64,000 nucleotides of DNA from Cordylochernes scorpioides (taxonomy: Eukaryota > Arthropoda > Arachnida > Pseudoscorpiones > Chernetidae): positions 41,721,008 to 41,785,007 of the forward strand of contig CP092879.1 in assembly GCA_030710605.1 (NCBI GenBank), read 5' to 3'. Position 1 is the first letter of the stretch. Each line of letters starts with the position of its first letter. Positions 7,809 through 63,832 of the stretch are shown here, one piece after another. A program made the translations under genes and the position numbers. The notes beneath the pieces were generated by a model. That model worked only from the letters and a program-made list of their open reading frames with translations. It was not told the DNA's origin and did not search any database.

Positions 7809-8117
7809 TTATAAAGTTAATATTTGAAAGATGGCCAAATTTAATTTTGAAGGATTTCGCTATATTCAAACTTGGTATAATAGTATATATAGTTAGATAA
7901 GTATAATAGATATAACCTTTTTTAGGTACCAGTTATGGTTCTGTATATATATTATATATATATATATATATTAAAAGTAAAGAAGGCATCTCCTGACCAC
8001 GAGCACATGTGCTTTTTAGATGGCAGAGCGCCATCTAGTGGAGCAAGAATAAACTAAACGTTTATTTAGCTTGCTCCGAGATATTTGGCCAACCCAATTT
8101 ATTGATAAATCAAGAAA

Positions 8118-8171
8118 AGCCATCCACGAACGCGTTTCGCGCTGTTGGCGCTCGTCAGCGTGGAGAAGGCT
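8118..8171 (-). ncRNA. Type I hammerhead ribozyme, family A, left arm
   Basis: Minus strand: outer stem I AGCC/GGCT, inner stem I TCCACG/CGTGGA, core CTGACGA, stem II GCGC-CAACA-GCGC, GAAA, two-base-pair stem III in ACGCGT, cleavage-site U. All conserved core residues are present. Confidence 0.75.
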
Positions 8172-8313
8172 GTAACCACTGCGACCAAAAAGATTTTTTT
8201 CTATTGTTTTTTCATGTGTTAAGCGTCTTTACGCAAATTTGGCCTTAAATACCCATTTCTTGATTTTTCGGAAAGCCATTGGGACCAAAAAATATTTTGG
8301 TCGCAGTGGTTAC

Positions 8314-8367
8314 AGTCTTCTCCACGCTGACGAGCGCCAACAGCGCGAAACGCGTTCGTGGATGGCT
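8314..8367 (+). ncRNA. Type I hammerhead ribozyme, family A, right arm
   Basis: CTGACGA at 8327-8333, stem II GCGC (8334-8337) with GCGC (8343-8346), GAAA 8347-8350, short stem III A8350-T8355, predicted cleavage after T8356. Stem I TCCACG (8321-8326) pairs with CGTGGA (8357-8362), and an outer AGTC/GGCT helix (one G-U) follows an internal loop. Compared with the left arm (AGCC/GGCT), a C to T change in the outer helix is still tolerated as a wobble pair. Confidence 0.75.
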
Positions 8368-8580
8368 TTTCTTGATTTATCAAAAAATTGGGTTGGCCAA
8401 ATATCTCGGAGCAAGCTAAATAAACGTTTAGTTTATTCTTGCTCCACTAGTGGGCGCTCTGCCATCTAAAAAGCACATGTGCTCGTGGTCAGGAGAAGCC
8501 TTCTTTACTTTTAATATCAACACCTGACCCACTTATCTTTTATTTTTTTCTATTGTTTTTTCATATATATATATATATAT

Positions 8581-9104
8581 AGATGAAAAATTTGCCGGGA
8601 GGACATTAATCCATAGAAGCAAAGGGCGCCTCTCCCGTCAAAATGAACGTCAAAAACTGACGCCATCTATTGACCGTCGCCGTTGTGGCTTTGTCACCGA
8701 CCCGAGGCCGCTAGTTGCGGCGACGGTCAATAGATGGCGTCAGTTTTTGACGTTCATTTTGACGGGAGAGGCGCCCTTTGCTTCTATGGATTAATGTCCT
8801 CCCGGCAAATTTTTCATCTATATTCTAGCCATAGATTTGGCCCAGCCACCTTGCCAGCAAAACACCTCTTTGGTAGATTGTGAAGATTCCATTAGATCCC
8901 GTGTGGATCTCATGGAATAAAGTCCGCCCTAGACTGACGAGGGCCATTAGCCCGAAACCATGGTCTCTAGGTGGACGCTTCTCAATTTGCCAAAGCTGGT
9001 GTTGTGGCTTTGTCACCGACCCGAGGGCCGCTAGTTGCGGCGACGGTCAATAGATGGCGTCAGTTTTTGACGTTCATTTTGACGGGAGAGGCGCCCTTTG
9101 CTTC

Positions 9105-9509: not shown

Positions 9510-9595
9510 TATATATCTGTTCCACCAGATGGCGCTCTGCCTTCTGTGAAGCACATGTGCTCCTGGTCAGGATATGCCTTTTTTAATATATATAT
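9510..9595 (+). repeat. Fragment of hammerhead repeat family A
   Basis: TCTGTTCCACCAGATGGCGC, GCACATGTGCTCCTGGTCAG and GATATGCC match the end of the family A unit. The ribozyme part is absent. Bounded on both sides by (AT)n. Confidence 0.8.
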
Positions 9596-9601
9596 ATATA
9601 C

Positions 9602-13015: not shown

Positions 13016-13378
13016 ATCGTTCCAAAAGGTCGTTTGTTTCAAGTTTGTTTTAGCTAAGGATTTCTCGGTGTTTATACAATTTAAAATCGAAATTGTAGCT
13101 GTGTGATGACCAATTTTAATAATTACTGATCAATTTGAAGTTTTGGTATCTATTAATTACCATCTAAAAAAAGAGCCATCTTAGGGTAAACGTTAAAATG
13201 GTGTGGGGTGCTATTCTACTTCATATATATATATATATAAAAAATGGCATATCCTGACCAGGAGCACATGTGCTTTACAGAAGGCAGAGCGCCATCTGGT
13301 GGAACAGAAATCAACTAAACATTGATTTAGCCTGTTCCCTGATATTTGGCCAACCCAATTTCTTGATAAATCAAGAAA

Positions 13379-13433
13379 AGCCATCCACGAACGCGTTTCG
13401 CGCTTTTTGGCGCTCGTCAGCGTGGAGTAGGCT
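13379..13433 (-). ncRNA. Type I hammerhead ribozyme, array unit 1
   Basis: Minus strand: outer stem I AGCC/GGCT, internal loop TAC/T, inner stem I TCCACG/CGTGGA, CTGACGA, stem II GCGC-CAAAAA-GCGC, GAAA, short stem III ACGCGT, cleavage-site U. All core positions fit. Differs from the 8.3 kb copy in the stem II loop. Confidence 0.85.
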
Positions 13434-13729
13434 GAACCATTGAGACCAAAAAAGATTTTTTGATCCCAATGGCCTCCTGAAAAACCAAGAAATGGGTATT
13501 TAAGGCCAAACTTGCGTAAATACGCTTAGCACATTAAAAAACGAAATAAAAAAAAAAAAGATAAAAAGATCAGGTGTTGAAATCAATATAAAAAATGGCA
13601 TATCCTGACCAGGAGCACATGTGCTTTACAGAAGGCAGAGCGCCATCTGGTGGAACAGAAATCAACTAAACATTGATTTAGCCTGTTCCCTGATATTTGG
13701 CCAACCCAATTTCTTGATAAATCAAGAAA

Positions 13730-13784
13730 AGCCATCCACGAACGCGTTTCGCGCTTTTTGGCGCTCGTCAGCGTGGAGTAGGCT
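13730..13784 (-). ncRNA. Type I hammerhead ribozyme, array unit 2
   Basis: Same sequence and structure as array unit 1, 351 bp away. Two ribozymes in direct repeat would excise one unit of RNA. Confidence 0.85.
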
Positions 13785-14080
13785 GAACCATTGAGACCAA
13801 AAAAGATTTTTTGATCCCAATGGCCTCCTGAAAAACCAAGAAATGGGTATTTAAGGCCAAACTTGCGTAAATACGCTTAGCACATTAAAAAACGAAATAA
13901 AAAAATAAAAGATAAAAAGATCAGGTGTTGAAATCAATATAAAAAATGGCATATCCTGACCAGGAGCACATGTGCTTTACAGAAGGCAGAGCGCCATCTG
14001 GTGGAACAGAAATCAACTAAACATTGATTTAGCCTGTTCCCTGATATTTGGCCAACCCAATTTCTTGATAAATCAAGAAA

Positions 14081-14135
14081 AGCCATCCACGAACGCGTTT
14101 CGCGCTTTTTGGCGCTCGTCAGCGTGGAGTAGGCT
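14081..14135 (-). ncRNA. Type I hammerhead ribozyme, array unit 3
   Basis: Same sequence and structure as units 1 and 2. It lies in the truncated third unit, close to its (AT)n end. Confidence 0.85.
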
Positions 14136-14449
14136 GAACCATTGAGACCAAAATATATATATATATATATGGTTTCATCAAAATCATTTCCTATAGGCTT
14201 CATAACGCTTACAAAAGCCAAAAGCCTTAAATTATTAAATTTTGTTGTGTGTCTTCATTTGTTCTAAAATTTTTTAAAATTTAATTTTTAGGTTATTTTT
14301 CAGAATTTTCCAAATGTGGTGCTGTTGCATGTTCTTTGATACGAATCCGCGAGTTCTAAGCAGAGAATATCAACAACATACATTGTTTTTCGGCTTTTAA
14401 AATGGAAGTAGCGATTTTGTCGCATATATAAAAATATATTTATAAAGCA

Positions 14450-14760
14450 AAATAGGGATATTCTGATCGTTCACTTGAGCATATTTGATGGCAGAGCGCC
14501 ATCTAGTGGAACAAAAATCAACTAAACGTTGACTAAACGTAAACGATATAACTTATTCCATGATATTTTAGCAACCCATTTTCTTCATTAATCAAGAAGG
14601 CCAATAACGAACGCGGTTTCAAGCTGTTGGCTATCGTTAGCGTGGTGCAGGTTGTATCTTATCGACCAAATATTCGGTCCTAGAGGCTTACTTAGAAATC
14701 AAGAAATGTGTATTAGAAGCCGAATTAACATGAATATGCTGTTCATGTGAAAAATATATG
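14450..14760 (-). repeat. Diverged single copy of hammerhead family A
   Basis: GATGGCAGAGCGCCATCTAG, TGGAACAAAAATCAACTAAA, GATATTTTAGCAACCCA and CTGTTGGCTATCGTTAGCG match the array but with many changes. The core reads CTAACGA and the GAAA block is altered, so the ribozyme is dead here. Confidence 0.75.
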
Positions 14761-14952: not shown

Positions 14953-15605
14953 CCCTACATGGACACCGCCCTGGTTGGGATTTACTACTTCAGACCCAAC
15001 ATTTGGACTACCTTCCAGGGTCATTTCCCACTTTCAACATTCCAGGACAACCAATTACCGGCTAATCTAATATAACATATCTGAATATGTCATCCAATGC
15101 CTACTTATTGTAACACAACATTCCAGAATGGAATGGACAGCGCCTTTGATGGGATTTACTACTTCAGACCCAACATTTAGACTACCTTCCAGGGCCTTGC
15201 TACCCAATATTCCAGAACAACCAATTACCGGCTGATCTAGCATATCTGAATATAAAATACAATTGGACACCGCCCTTGCTGGTATTTACTACTTCAGACC
15301 CAACATTTGGACTACCTTCCAGGGTCTCACTACCCACTCTCAACATTCTAGAACAACCAATTACCGGCTAATCTAAGATATCTGAATATGACCTCCAATA
15401 ACTACTTAATCTAACGCAACATTCCAGAATGGAATGGACACCGCCCTTGCTGGGATTTACTACTTCAGACCCAACATTTGGACTACCTTCCCCGGTCTCA
15501 CTACCCAACATTCCAGAACAACCAATTACCGGCTGATCTAACATATCTGAATATAATATCTAATACCTACTTATTCCAACGACAACATTTCAGAATATAA
15601 AATAA
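14953..15605. repeat. Tandem satellite, period about 171-174 bp, four copies
   Basis: GGACACCGCCCT.GCTGGGATTTACTACTTCAGACC begins at about 14961, 15135, 15265 and 15436 (spacings 174, 130, 171). The third step lost about 42 bp. GC content is above the local background. No ORF is conserved. Confidence 0.85.
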
Positions 15606-19775: not shown

Positions 19776-20639
19776 CACACAATAGCTCTACTATTATTCA
19801 ACTTGATTTCCTTCCTTTATTTCTTCATTTTTTTCTTTCAATTCTGTGATCGAGTTCAAATTCTCCATCCTACCATTTTCTTTTCATTCTTTTCGCCCTT
19901 TAGAATATTTTACATCAATACAAATTTTCCCTAATATAAACATTCCATTTTTTTTTTATTTTCTAACGAATGTATAAGATAATTATTTATAATACTGATG
20001 TGGTCTGTAGTTTTAATTATTATCGGAAATAGATATAACTTCTTACACAAATACTAAGCGTTTTTAATTCAAAAATTAATTATGATGGATTTATCTGAAT
20101 TTTAAAATATGATTTAGTTTCTTATCAATATAAAAATATAAGGAACATGGAATATGCTTCATGAGTACCCTTTAAAAAATATACCATCTCATTGGGAAGA
20201 TTGAAACATTTCAAATAGTTAGTATTGATAAAGTAAAATCCACGACCATTTTTAAAAACTTATAAATTAAAAAACTACTTTACTAGATATATTTCAACTT
20301 TTGATAAAGGCCCTACTGATGCGTATTTCTCTTTTTATTCGATAAATCTTCAAAAAAATTGATATTATTATCACAAAATATTTTAGAATAAAACTTTTGA
20401 AAGTGTCTGAAGATGGAAACATTTGTACAATAGAGAATATATGTATATACGGTATTTGAAGTTGAATTGATTTGAAAGACTTGAGCTGTCACGTTGTGAA
20501 GGAAGTCCCAGAATGTGAGAATCTCACAACGCCATCTACATCAATAGCTAAGAATAATATTTGCATAAAATTTGGAGAGACGATTAGAGGTGGGTGTCTG
20601 GGGAGCGAGCGAGTGGCCGCGGGCTGTTTTCTGGAAATA

Positions 20640-21262
20640 TCTGGTGTGTTTTCTTGGCCTTCTTTCTTCTCATATATCTTTGTACCTTGTTGGATGTATT
20701 GATTGGGTTATATTGAGAGATAGATCTGGTGTGTTTTCTTGGTCTTCTTTCTTCTCATATATCTTTGTACCTTGTTAGATGTATTGATTGGGTTATAGTG
20801 AGAGATAGATCTGGTATGTCTTCTTTCTTCTCATATATCTTTGTACCTTGTTGGATGTATTGATTGGGTTATAGTGAGAGATAGATCTGGTATGTCTTCT
20901 TTCTTCTCATATATCTTTGTACCTTGTTGGATGTATTGATTGGGTTATAGTGGGAGATAGATCTGGTGTGTTTTCTTGGCCTTCTTTCTTCTCATATATC
21001 TTTGTACCATGTTGGAGGTATTGATTGGGTTATAGTGAAAGATAGATCTGGTGTGCTTTCTTGGTCTTCTTTCTTCTCATATATCTTTGTACCTTGTTGG
21101 AGGTATTGATTGGGTTATAATGAGAGATAGATCTGGTATGTCTTCTTTCTTCTCATATATCTTTGTACCTTGTTGGAGGTATTGATTGGGTTATAGTGAG
21201 AGATAGATCTAGTGTGGCTTCTTTCTTCTTATATATCTTTGTACCTTGTTGGAGGTATTAAC
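20640..21262. repeat. Minisatellite with two unit lengths, 76 and 85 bp, eight copies
   Basis: CATATATCTTTGTACC occurs at 20671, 20756, 20832, 20908, 20993, 21078, 21154 and (as TATATATC) 21230. Spacings are 85, 76, 76, 85, 85, 76, 76. The 9-bp difference lies in the GTGTTTTCTTGG part. Units include TTGTTGGATGTATTGATTGG and GAGAGATAGATCTGG. Confidence 0.95.
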
Positions 21263-22290: not shown

Positions 22291-22316
22291 TTCTAATTTC
22301 AGACAAATATCCAACT

Positions 22317-22355
22317 TGTATACCATGGTTTCGAGCTATGGTCCTCATCAGTACA
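22317..22355 (-). ncRNA. Isolated hammerhead ribozyme motif
   Basis: Minus strand: stem I TGTA/TACA, core CTGATGA (22351-22345), GGACCATAGCTC, GAAA (22332-22329), stem III ACC-AT-GGT, cleavage-site A (GTA triplet). Core and stem III are complete and match family B in stem III. Stem II is weak (G-C plus a G-U pair), so activity is uncertain. Confidence 0.55.
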
Positions 22356-22359
22356 GGAG

Positions 22360-49234: not shown

Positions 49235-50178
49235 ATGTCCTTGCAAGGCCAACCATATATTTATCAAAAGAGAAAGTTGGACGTGAATGTAACAATGTAG
49301 ATTGTGGATATAGACGGAGACTATACTGTATATATTTTAATAATAAAATATTTTCAGGAATATTCATTGAAATTATATTAGAATATACACTTATAGACAA
49401 ATCTTAAGATAGTTGTAGCTTTTAGCATGCATCTCGGGATTCGGATAATCACTCTGAAAGATATCTTTCATTCATTTGATACACAGTAACCTTTATTGAA
49501 TACACACGAGATAACGGAGTGTGAACATAATTTTCTTTTTATTCTTAAAAGAAAAAACAGACAATCGGTGACAGAATATGAAACTTTCTTAAGTTTCGTC
49601 CATTGGTGTACTTTTTGGCGAGAAAATTATTTTTCCGGCTAAGAAGATTTACACTGTTCGTGGAATGAGACTTTCTTACAGTACCTATAGCAGTAGAGGT
49701 ATACCGATTTGAGTAAATCAATGCTCAAACAAATATTAGTATATTAATCCTTTAGAATTTATATGGTGTCTGCTTTAATGAGTAGAGCTCACCAAATAAT
49801 ATTTGACATCCATAATGATTGGGTGAATTAGAATGCATCTGTCTTTGTCGTCAAGACTGGGAGCACTATTCAGTAGCAGGCTACTGTCTTAACTCCAATA
49901 TGAAATGGCCGCATCTGATACCTGAATTTGGGATATGAAAAAAATGAGATTTTCAATTATTAATAATATAAAATATATTAATCAAAATCGAGTTTGTATA
50001 TATTTATCATTAAAAAATAAGAAGAATTATATAATTAATATGAGGTTAAAATAAACACTGATGAAGTGAGACCTGTCATTTAATAATTTCTATCATTGCA
50101 ATAAGGTTTGAATATATAATATTTGATAATATATTAGTATATTGCCAATAGAATTATAAAATTAATTGATAAATGGCT

Positions 50179-51611
50179 TAACACAAAGCAATAACGCGCC
50201 ATCTATACATATAAAAATAAAAGTACTTAAAAGCGCGAATGTTTCTTTTATACATAAAACAAACTTCTACTGTCCTTACTGCGATGAAAAATATATTGGG
50301 AGGGCTTGGCTCATCAGTGGTGAACCCTCCCAGCGGTTTCGCCAATTTAATCCACCAGACCGCTTCTCAGAGCTCTAATATTGTATTGGATCATTCTGCT
50401 TTTATATGCTACACTGAAGGATGGAATCTTAGAAATGGTTTTCAAGTAAACTATGGACATAAGCTTATAGGACAGTAGAATTATATTCAAATATTTGCTT
50501 CGAGCAATGCTCTTCAGCAAACTATAAATACAAGGTCATTAGGAATAAATTAACACAAAGCAATAACGCGCCATCTATACATATAAAATAAAAGGACTTA
50601 AAAGCGCGAATGTTTCTTTTATACATAAAACGAACTTCTACTGTCCTTACTGCGATGAAAAATATATTGGGAGGGCTTGGCTCATCAGTGGTGAACCCTC
50701 CCAGCGGTTTCGCCAATTTAATCCACCAGACCGCTTCTCAGAGCTCTAATATTGTATTGGATCATTCTGCTTTTATATGCTACACTGAAGGATGGAATCT
50801 TAGAAATGGTTTTCAAGTAAACTATGGACATAAGCTTATAGGACAGTAGAATTATATTCAAATATTTGCTTCGAGCAATGCTCTTCAGCAAACTATAAAT
50901 ACAAGGTCATTAGGAATAAACTAACACAAAGCAATAACGCGCCATCTATACATATAAAATAAAAGGACTTAAAAGCGCGAATGTTTCTTTTATACATAAA
51001 ACGAACTTCTACTGTCCTTACTGCGATGAAAAATATATTGGGAGGGCTTGGCTCATCAGTGGTGAACCCTCCCAGCGGTTTCGCCAATTTAATCCACCAG
51101 ACCGCTTCTCAGAGCTCTAATATTGTATTGGATCATTCTGCTTTTATATGCTACACTGAAGGATGGAATCTTAGAAATGGTTTTCAAGTAAACTATGGAC
51201 ATAAGCTTATAGGACAGTAGAATTATATTCAAATATTTGCTTCGAGCAATGCTCTTCAGCAAACTATAAATACAAGGTCATTAGGAATAAATTAACACAA
51301 AGCAATAACGCGCCATCTATACATATAAAATAAAAGGACTTAAAAGCGCGAATGTTTCTTTTATACATAAAACGAACTTCTACTGTCCTTACTGCGATGA
51401 AAAATATATTGGGAGGGCTTGGCTCATCAGTGGTGAACCCTCCCAGCGGTTTCGCCAATTTAATCCACCAGACCGCTTCTCAGAGCTCTAATATTGTATT
51501 GGATCATTCTGCTTTTATATGCCAATATATTTTTCATCGCAGTAAGGACAGTAGAAGTTCGTTTTATGTATAAAAGAAACATTCGCGCTTTTAAGTCCTT
51601 TTATTTTATAT
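50179..51611 (-). mobile_element. 371-bp tandem array with inverted end piece and 11-bp target duplication
   Basis: Units start at 50179, 50551, 50922 and 51293 (spacing 372, 371, 371). The fourth stops at about 51521 and is followed by an inverse copy of the unit start (51522-51611). GATAAATGGCT occurs immediately before (50168-50178) and after (51612-51622) the whole block. So the array, inverted piece included, was inserted as one event. Units look nearly identical. Repeated ORFs of 64-79 codons in the units show no domain and no sign of being genes. Each unit holds a candidate permuted hammerhead on the minus strand. Confidence 0.9.
50677..50716 (-). ncRNA. Candidate type II (permuted) hammerhead, repeat unit 2
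   Basis: Minus strand: TTGGC (50716-50712), GAAA (50711-50708), a minimal ACCGC, TGG ... CCA mini stem I, CTGATGA (50688-50682), GCCAA (50681-50677). TTGGC pairs perfectly with GCCAA as stem II exactly between the two core blocks. The A15.1-U16.1 pair is missing, and a 7-bp GGGAGGG/CCCTCCC hairpin competes. Identical copies at 50306-50345, 51048-51087 and 51419-51458. Confidence 0.35.
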
Positions 51612-51614
51612 GAT

Positions 51615-52360
51615 AAATGGCTATTGGAATTAAATTGTAATTTGCTAATTGTGATTTATATTTTTGATTAGAAATCGCCTATAAACATGGATACTCCTAG
51701 CCTCTCCTGAAATTGATCGTTCATAGGATATTAATGTTATCATTCTGTTTTGTTTTATAAAGGTGGTTGCTTTAGAGAAGAGAGAGTTTCAATGTAATAG
51801 AGAAATAGGACTATAAATTTATAGTTCAACTCAAGGATTAATTTAAGAATACATTACTTTCGGAGATTGTTATCAGTTATAAAAAGACAACGATCCAATA
51901 CATCTTGGCCTTTGGTCCAAAGTCAAAATACGACAACGTTCAGCAAATTAACATATTGATGCTTCCCTCAATGGCGACGAAGGCCATTCTTCTAAATAGA
52001 TTTAGGCTTCCTTATTGAATTCTCCACAATTTATGGCCGCTTAATCCCATTACCTATTTGTTGCTACCCCATCTACTTGTGCATTGTGTCACATAGTGTG
52101 CTAAATCTTTAATTCTTCTATGGTATTTATGTAAATTATGTCCATTTATAATGGAATATTTATTTTGAAAGAGATAGGATACATATATTGCCTATATATA
52201 TATATATAACTTTTAATATACACTCATGGACAAACCTTAATAAAGCTTCATATTTTAAGCATAAATAAGTACTTATTTGCTTATATACATCTAAAAAATT
52301 TCGAATATACTTTCATTCAAAATACATATATATACTATAATAATAATAAATATATATATA
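51615..52360. other. AT-rich stretch without recognisable gene
   Basis: Nothing coding recognised. Confidence 0.5.
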
Positions 52361-63423: not shown

Positions 63424-63832
63424 GCTTCCAGGGTTAAGTTTCTCTTGAAACTTTTTATTTTCAAGCTTTCGGACTTGTCAGTTCTTAAACAGAAGTATCA
63501 CATTAAAAACTTAATAATAAATTTTGAAAATAAAGATACTTTGGCCAGTAAATCTTTTTATTACCTGGACGTTTCGACAAAAAGCTTTTGTCCTCGTCAG
63601 AAGCAAACAAAGTATTAGACTGAAGTATCTTTATTTTCAAGAACTATGAATGCCGGCCAGGCAGTCTATATCTTTACGATATTTATATATAACTTAATAA
63701 TAAATACCATTTTATATACACATTATTTTTATTTATTATTAAGTTGTTAACGTGATACTCTTGTTGAAGGACTGACAAAGTCCGAAAGCTTGAAAATAAA
63801 AGGTTGCACAAGAAACTTAACCCTGGAATATG
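63424..63832. mobile_element. Nested hammerhead-type repeats
   Basis: Outer arms 63424-63520 and 63711-63832 are inverse copies (GGGTTAAGTTTCTCTTG..., CAAGCTTTCGGACTTGTCAG / CTGACAAAGTCCGAAAGCTTG). Between them sits a different family (63525-63700) that starts GAAAATAAAGATACTTTGGCC and ends with GCCGGCCAGGCAG. The outer family core is CTGACAA...GAAAGCTT with G8 lost. Confidence 0.75.
63565..63605 (-). ncRNA. Hammerhead-like motif, GAAACGTC family
   Basis: Minus strand: CTGACGA (63600-63594), stem II GGACAAAAG/CTTTTTGTC, GAAA (63575-63572), minimal ACGT, cleavage-site C. The core is complete, but no stem I pairing (TTTGCTT against CAGGTAA) is seen, so probably inactive. Confidence 0.45.

Follow-up and report, generated by a model that had tools for sequence, protein, structure and literature searches.

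Metazoan retrozymes are described as short, low-GC tandem units with a type I hammerhead in each unit and no long ORF, present in multiple dispersed copies flanked by duplications of >4 bp (PMC7229834). Penelope-like elements (PLEs) have been named "a strong candidate" for their mobilisation, with LINEs listed too as possible helpers (Cervera and de la Pena 2020, PMC7229834). In vitro, reverse transcription by an anole PLE starts at two internal sites bounding a tail, both DNA strands are cut and AT-rich targets are preferred, and hammerhead mutants had no effect on insertion in that assay (PMC11167929). Rotifer PLEs may or may not carry the tail on one of their inverted pLTRs, and several copies are flanked by duplications of 8-10 bp (PMC3846280). 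Stem III pairing between two hammerheads has been described for amphibian and PLE hammerheads (PMC7229834; PMC7761336). Lastly, the paper that describes type-SGC hammerheads reports no example from the genome of a known organism (Eckert et al. 2023, PMC10085705).

We analysed a 351-bp tandem array in a 64-kb window, i.e. the whole stretch of DNA under study (C17:41721008-41785007, from a 2.62-Gb genome in 24 contigs), and its copies elsewhere in the genome. The array shares with the retrozymes of PMC7229834 the traits listed above, unit architecture as well as dispersal with duplications; unlike them, the 351 family forms two-armed palindromes with outer ends of two kinds, B and E, in AT-microsatellite targets, an arrangement absent from the main text of that paper, where the palindrome mentioned is helix III. 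It resembles the anole and rotifer PLEs (PMC11167929, PMC3846280) in having two internal RT start sites that bound a tail, AT-rich targets, an apparent cutting of both strands, duplications like the 8-10 bp ones of several copies, inverted arms with the tail on one, as in pLTRs, and an upstream hammerhead. It differs from PLEs in lacking a long ORF and in arms made of many whole units, and from the anole PLE in that the start sites, used equally on both strands there, are found one per arm in 31 of 32 insertions here. Its hammerhead has a very short palindromic stem III, better formed by two molecules, as in newt and axolotl satellite and PLE dimeric hammerheads; an outer stem I and a full-length match to Rfam HH9 set it apart from the minimal PLE motif. 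What is new here is the insertion record of the 351-bp retrozyme, and a second element with a type-SGC hammerhead.

The features of the array are:
13223..13239, (AT)n target flank on the left, shared in part with the B end
13235..13585, minus strand, unit 1, 351 bp (the RNA has minus-strand sense; B end at 13235, the RT start without tail)
13586..13936, minus strand, unit 2, one difference from unit 1
13937..14153, minus strand, partial unit 3, halting at unit position 217 and passing directly into (TA)n, without opposite arm
13533..13585, minus strand, "tail" (unit positions 299-351), bounded by start sites B and E; in other copies it makes up the E end
14153..14170, right (AT)n target flank
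13379..13433, minus strand, type I hammerhead of unit 1, putative cut between 13390 and 13389
13730..13784, minus strand, type I hammerhead of unit 2, predicted cut 13741/13740
14081..14135, minus strand, type I hammerhead of unit 3, predicted cut 14092/14091
13568..13610, minus strand, putative priming stem-loop GGUCAGG[...AUUUUUUAUAU^UGAUUUCAACA]CCUGAUC at the unit 1/2 boundary, with start site B in the loop
13919..13961, minus strand, putative priming stem-loop at the unit 2/3 boundary

TRF reports a period of 351 over 13235-14153, with 2.6 copies and 99% matches; unit 2 differs from unit 1 by a single base, and partial unit 3 shows 0 differences over 217 bases. The original prediction had proposed just such a tandem, with one hammerhead per unit on the minus strand, and both points stand: a complete core is found at 13379-13433, 13730-13784 and 14081-14135. 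The unit length lies within the 150-450 bp of retrozymes, and the GC content of 39.6% (0.396) is under their 50% limit. No ORF ≥120 aa overlaps 13235-14153, and the RT and GIY-YIG coding that defines a PLE is missing from the array; lacking an encoded RT and GIY-YIG, the 351-bp element is non-autonomous at most. Note that the window copy has a single arm, without E end.

Each unit carries the minus-strand motif AGCC-UACU-CCACG CUGACGA GCGC-CAAAAA-GCGC GAAA CGCG UU^CGUGG-AU-GGCU, of which GUU^CGUGG is, on our best reading of the motif, the predicted cleavage site. No Rfam family reached its gathering score across the whole window. With an E-value threshold, a covariance-model search of 2.3 kb, of the kind proposed with the original prediction, did match Hammerhead_HH9 to all three units (E 1.7e-7), at 38 bits for a gathering score of 52; each unit thus has its type I hammerhead, though under the Rfam gathering score. 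A strict type I descriptor, composed after the motif was seen, finds six places on both strands of the window, the three array units plus 8158-, 8327+ and 8934+; when both strands of 200 random 64-kb sequences matched to the window in dinucleotide frequencies were scanned, it found one match. The two-base-pair stem III originally proposed has to be given up, as CGCG alone makes a loopless hairpin. Two-strand folding gives -43.1 kcal/mol for two hammerheads with a common palindromic stem III and -18.4 kcal/mol for a single hammerhead; twice the latter falls short of the former, and the dimeric hammerhead is therefore our preferred reading. In this folding model, two hammerheads more likely contribute to stem III together. 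RNA of the 351-bp unit is predicted to self-cleave and may yield 351-nt circles.

For the 351-nt RNA, the predicted fold has an energy of -118.8 kcal/mol (z -7.9). We compared this fold, with the hammerhead drawn in, among 12 diverged copies from the window and the fetched loci, of which win8194/win7973 and L040a/L040b are not independent because they are opposite arms at one place. In these copies, 86.9% of cells are paired, against 38-45% in slid versions, and two-sided changes occur at 14 pairs in 30 cells, against 3-8 cells in slid versions. One of the 12 sequences served to derive the fold, which biases the paired percentage in its favour, and more weight therefore belongs to the two-sided changes. 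Five measures were compared with 500 shuffles: no shuffle reached three of them, 6 shuffles reached the number of pairs with two-sided change, and 64 that of further pair types. The clearest two-sided changes lie in stem II and in the hairpin at columns 263-317, and neither part of stem I has any among the 12 copies.

As the original prediction expected, 351-bp units are present elsewhere in the genome, as dispersed copies on many contigs. Of 181 first-look candidates in the genome search with the unit, 40 were scored, and these gave at least 137 matches; all copy counts are therefore lower bounds. We fetched 39 places and mapped units, strand and phase; removal of matches <88% identity and clusters <300 bases left 42 clusters at the 39 places. 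In most places, whole units form head-to-head palindromes, plus-strand units followed by minus-strand units, whose outer ends lie at unit position 1-2 (B) or ~299-302 (E), about 52 nt apart. The tandem array foreseen as the form of the element describes the window copy; a typical insertion has two arms forming a palindrome, and the window copy corresponds to one of them. Both outer ends could be called in 32 of the 42 clusters: 31 have one B and one E, one has E/E and none has B/B, with the E end on the left side in 17 of the 32. The sole E/E insertion, L019, has ~150 foreign bases between its arms. The ten other clusters are the window copy (L009), the first cluster of L012, both halves of L015 (E left, B right, with other DNA in between), L021 (N gap), L039, the first cluster of L042, L043, L045 and L047. 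Arms exceed one unit in 49 of 62 cases, up to 16.7 units, and E-arm and B-arm lengths do not differ (medians 2.52 and 2.45 units; Wilcoxon p 0.24, 31 mixed insertions). The central junctions of the palindromes fall at scattered positions, with short overlaps or fillers. Of 68 inner arm ends, 6 lie within 3 nt of the hammerhead cut, where 1.36 were expected (binomial p 0.0024). We considered a cleavage footprint but rejected this reading: the inner ends give no sign of cleavage, because unit positions near 120 and 250 gather about as many or more.

Flanking (AT)5+ tracts are found on both sides of 22 of the 32 insertions, on one side of three and on neither side of seven. These seven are flanked by direct repeats of 7 to 14 letters, six of them of 11 or more, lengths that overstate the duplications because up to 3 element bases per side (up to six) can be counted in. 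Among 2000 random 21-mer pairs from the window, a direct repeat of at least 11 occurred in 0 and one of at least 7 in 67. Examples are CACATTAAT (L023), GATATATTT (L027) and CTTTAAA (L010); L015, not among the 32, has TTATACCTGTCG. The family thus combines dispersed copies with target-site duplications of >4 bp, and with their fixed ends these support what the original prediction had named it: the array is a metazoan (non-LTR) retrozyme, non-coding and recently mobile.

We then aligned the 202 full units of the fetched loci over 308 columns, with A-runs masked. Over these columns, units differ on average by 0.90 within an arm (0.47 without L015 and L021), by 0.43 between the arms of one insertion and by 2.15 between insertions. 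Among 35 insertions with at least two full units, 11 have variants, relative to the majority, that are fixed in all their units, and nine of these have full units on both arms. In six of the nine (L024, L028, L029, L031, L032 and L035), at least one such variant is private to the insertion; the fixed variants of L026, L030, L040 and L043 are common to another insertion as well. The other 24 insertions, having no fixed variant, carry no information on the template. Of 64 sites variable within insertions, 57 vary in a single unit, and five of the seven that are common to some units but not all are in L015 and L021. Variants present in all units of both arms point to a single kind of monomer template for each insertion, either circular or uniform. 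Repeated copying of one monomer predicts the fixed-variant pattern, and a uniform multimer would predict it likewise.

The 351 family behaves as a PLE does, with two start sites bounding a tail, AT targets and inverted arms, although the window copy has one arm. A search for GIY-YIG gave at least 146 matches among those scored, from 17015 first-look candidates, and five PLE loci (L048-L052) were taken from the 146. One of these, L049, codes for RT and GIY-YIG and has 2402-bp arms at 100% identity, one ending at ...AUUUUUUAUAUAAAU (B) and the other with a further 36-nt tail, and CAGGTA flanks both sides. Its start site lies in the loop of a 7-bp stem, CUGGCCG/CGGCCAG, and AUUUUUUAUAU is present in this loop as in that of the 351 unit (stem GGUCAGG/CCUGAUC). 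The stem-loop alone is modest evidence, because a 7-bp stem with at least 4 GC pairs is found at 2.9% of random positions (87/3000). Similar stems can be drawn for family 3 (CGGGAG/CUCCCG), the 371 unit (CGCGC/GCGCG) and fam2 (GGUCAGG/CCUGACC); for fam2 and the 371 unit, the longest stem found by script is another, GC-poor one and not the GC stem named here. L049 is similar to the 351-bp element in architecture only, not in end sequence: among the five PLE loci, likeness to the 351 unit is confined to short stretches in its A-rich part, and no autonomous PLE among them has ends matching it in sequence. The PLE loci fetched besides L049 do not show the both-ends arrangement. A PLE is the putative helper of the 351-bp element. 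Copying by a Penelope-type machine, as originally proposed, gains support from the dispersed copies with fixed ends and target duplications, the PLE-like pair of start sites, the putative priming stem-loop and the variants shared through whole insertions.

Relatives of the 351 unit are also found nearby in the window:
7971..8564, related palindromic retrozyme, 86-88% identical to the 351 unit, B end left and E end right, in (AT)n
8123-8166 (minus strand) and 8319-8362 (plus strand), hammerheads of this relative
14449..14754, minus strand, old diverged relative of the 351 unit, 68%, with a mutated hammerhead core (CTAACGA)

In addition, 9513-9600 is a solo B-end fragment of the 351 family (95%), ending in (AT)n. 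A third, unrelated palindromic element (8583-9104) shares the AT tract of the 7971-8564 copy; its hammerhead at 8928-8971 (plus strand) has the palindrome CCATGG as stem III, and we read its E end as left and its B end as right. The 351, 371 and third families, otherwise unrelated, have GCGCCATCT or GACGCCATCT near the start site (13290, 50195, 8661 and repeats), which we take to resemble a CTCF-like motif. Elsewhere in the window, 22315-22357 (minus strand) holds a hammerhead-like motif, CCUGUA CUGAUGA GGACCAUAGCUC GAAACCAUGGUA UACAAG, and 63522-63681 (minus strand) a small PLE palindrome with a minimal hammerhead (63564-63604) and a tail on one side only. Further tandem repeats lie at 20639-21259 (76/322 bp) and 14960-15556 (301 bp), in which whole-window Rfam (gathering score) and descriptor scans found no ribozyme. 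The genome contains TTAGG repeats (748 overlapping pattern matches) and no TTAGGG, a pattern consistent with an arthropod source.

The second retrozyme-like element of the window comprises:
50178..51522, minus strand, tandem of 371-bp units, 3.6 copies, E end at 50178
51523..51611, plus strand, opposite arm, within a stretch matching unit positions 22-122 at 98%, B end at 51611
50298..50364, minus strand, type-SGC (non-circularly permuted, pseudoknotted) hammerhead, also at 50669-50735, 51040-51106 and 51411-51477
50168..50177, 10-bp target-site duplication GATAAATGGC, again at 51612-51621

The minus strand of the 371 unit reads AGCGGU C^UGGUG..UUGGC GAAA CCGCU GGGAGGG..CACCA CUGAUGA GCCAA..CCCUCCC, with its blocks in the order S-G-C. 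It has what defines type-SGC hammerheads (PMC10085705), namely this order, CUGANGA and GAAA, stems I-III and a fourth helix; unlike those described there, it comes from the genome of an animal, where a tandem element and a PLE carry it. From its sequence, the 371-bp element is a carrier of a type-SGC hammerhead, whose cleavage is predicted. A literature search of open-licence PMC papers, which makes for a weak absence, found no later description of such hammerheads.

In the genome table of the 371 unit (at least 119 matches listed, from 40 scored of 277 candidates), palindromic clusters with both outer ends visible number seven among the matches listed, and all seven have one B and one E. One-strand clusters and cut ends were left out, and this count is weaker than that of the 351 family because the pieces seem clipped ~50 bases beyond the scored matches. 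A type-SGC descriptor, composed after the motif was seen, finds 11 places in the 326 kb examined, compared with 1 in 100 random windows: four in the window, one each in L012, L015, L016 and L033, and one further sequence in L048 (twice) and in L041. The L048 version keeps all 22 pairs, 12 of them changed on both sides relative to the 371 unit; that of L012 has lost one stem I pair. L048 is a PLE with GIY-YIG (E 9.8e-6) ahead of RT (E 1.1e-6, just under the curated cut-off), an order which is presumably that of permuted PLEs. We compared its 141-base ribozyme stretch itself with the genome and found at least 41 matches, 40 nearly full-length at 99-100% and one 76-base piece at 100% (40 scored of 1189 first-look candidates); this PLE, present in L048 and L041, looks recently active because the stretch is 99-100% identical among the listed copies. 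At L048 and L041 (C1:8983801-8995208), the ribozyme stretch is repeated ~5.3 kb apart, in tandem and head to head.

Overall, we think it quite probable that the 351-bp element is a recently mobile non-coding retrozyme, whose ribozyme-made monomers become circles that a PLE inserts in trans by two-ended priming at B and E. The minus strand would be transcribed, and the hammerhead, probably as a dimer, would cut the RNA to 351-nt monomers, which may then be ligated to circles. A PLE protein would bind the priming stem-loop in trans; the ends and duplications suggest that AT-rich DNA would receive a staggered cut with 3' overhangs, both 3' ends acting as primers. One cDNA would start at site B, in the loop of the stem-loop, and the other at site E, ~52 nt further 3' on the RNA. 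Each polymerase would circle the RNA, often more than once, giving tandem units per arm, and both cDNA arms would be joined head to head; the window copy would be a one-sided product begun at B.

The template could instead be linear multimeric transcripts, a PLE copying a tandem transcript for which the hammerhead is dispensable. The insertion of the anole PLE in spite of hammerhead mutations (PMC11167929) would fit with this, as would L015 and L021, where units differ within one array. However, a transcript of an old array would carry unit-to-unit differences along, and two findings therefore count against it: the distinguishing variants of 11 of 35 insertions occur in all their units, and 57 of 64 variable sites vary in one unit only; a very uniform array as the source of the transcript is not contradicted by the variants. 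We hold linear templates to be rather unlikely. It is very unlikely that a LINE, by twin priming, is the mobilising machine. Twin priming likewise yields inverted 5' parts, and LINEs do figure in the literature as possible helpers; yet both outer ends here correspond to PLE-like start sites on the RNA, one of them with a tail and the other without, the PLE L049 has the same arrangement, and GIY-YIG is abundant (at least 146 matches, in a search made on the PLE side). The mention of LINEs as helpers is that of Cervera and de la Pena 2020 (PMC7229834).

Near-identical units in tandem arrays could also be satellite DNA in which the hammerhead is a passenger, with unequal exchange or rolling circles at the DNA level as the means of spread, but the fixed outer ends, target duplications, differing central junctions and dispersal over many contigs make this highly improbable. 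Equally, we give next to no credit to the palindromes being assembly artefacts of inverted duplication: the L021 array does end in a run of N, but arm lengths and centres differ among insertions, and unique flanks with duplicated targets lie on both sides. We thus retain two-ended insertion of ribozyme-made circles by a PLE as the probable reading. Extended beyond this family, we would give an even chance to the proposal that insertion of animal retrozymes proceeds by rolling target-primed reverse transcription from two ends, with a single ribozyme-made circle as the RNA and a dimeric PLE protein holding it, that the start sites are obligately used one per target strand, which would explain the optional tail of Penelope, and that the second tandem element and a PLE family are the first genomic home of type-SGC hammerheads.

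The route by which animal retrozymes enter the genome had been an open question, which becomes testable in one species because young, near-identical insertions record ends, targets and something of the template. For PLE enzymology, the rule of one B and one E end makes a specific prediction, and the presence of type-SGC hammerheads in a PLE and in a tandem element suggests a genomic source for that ribozyme.
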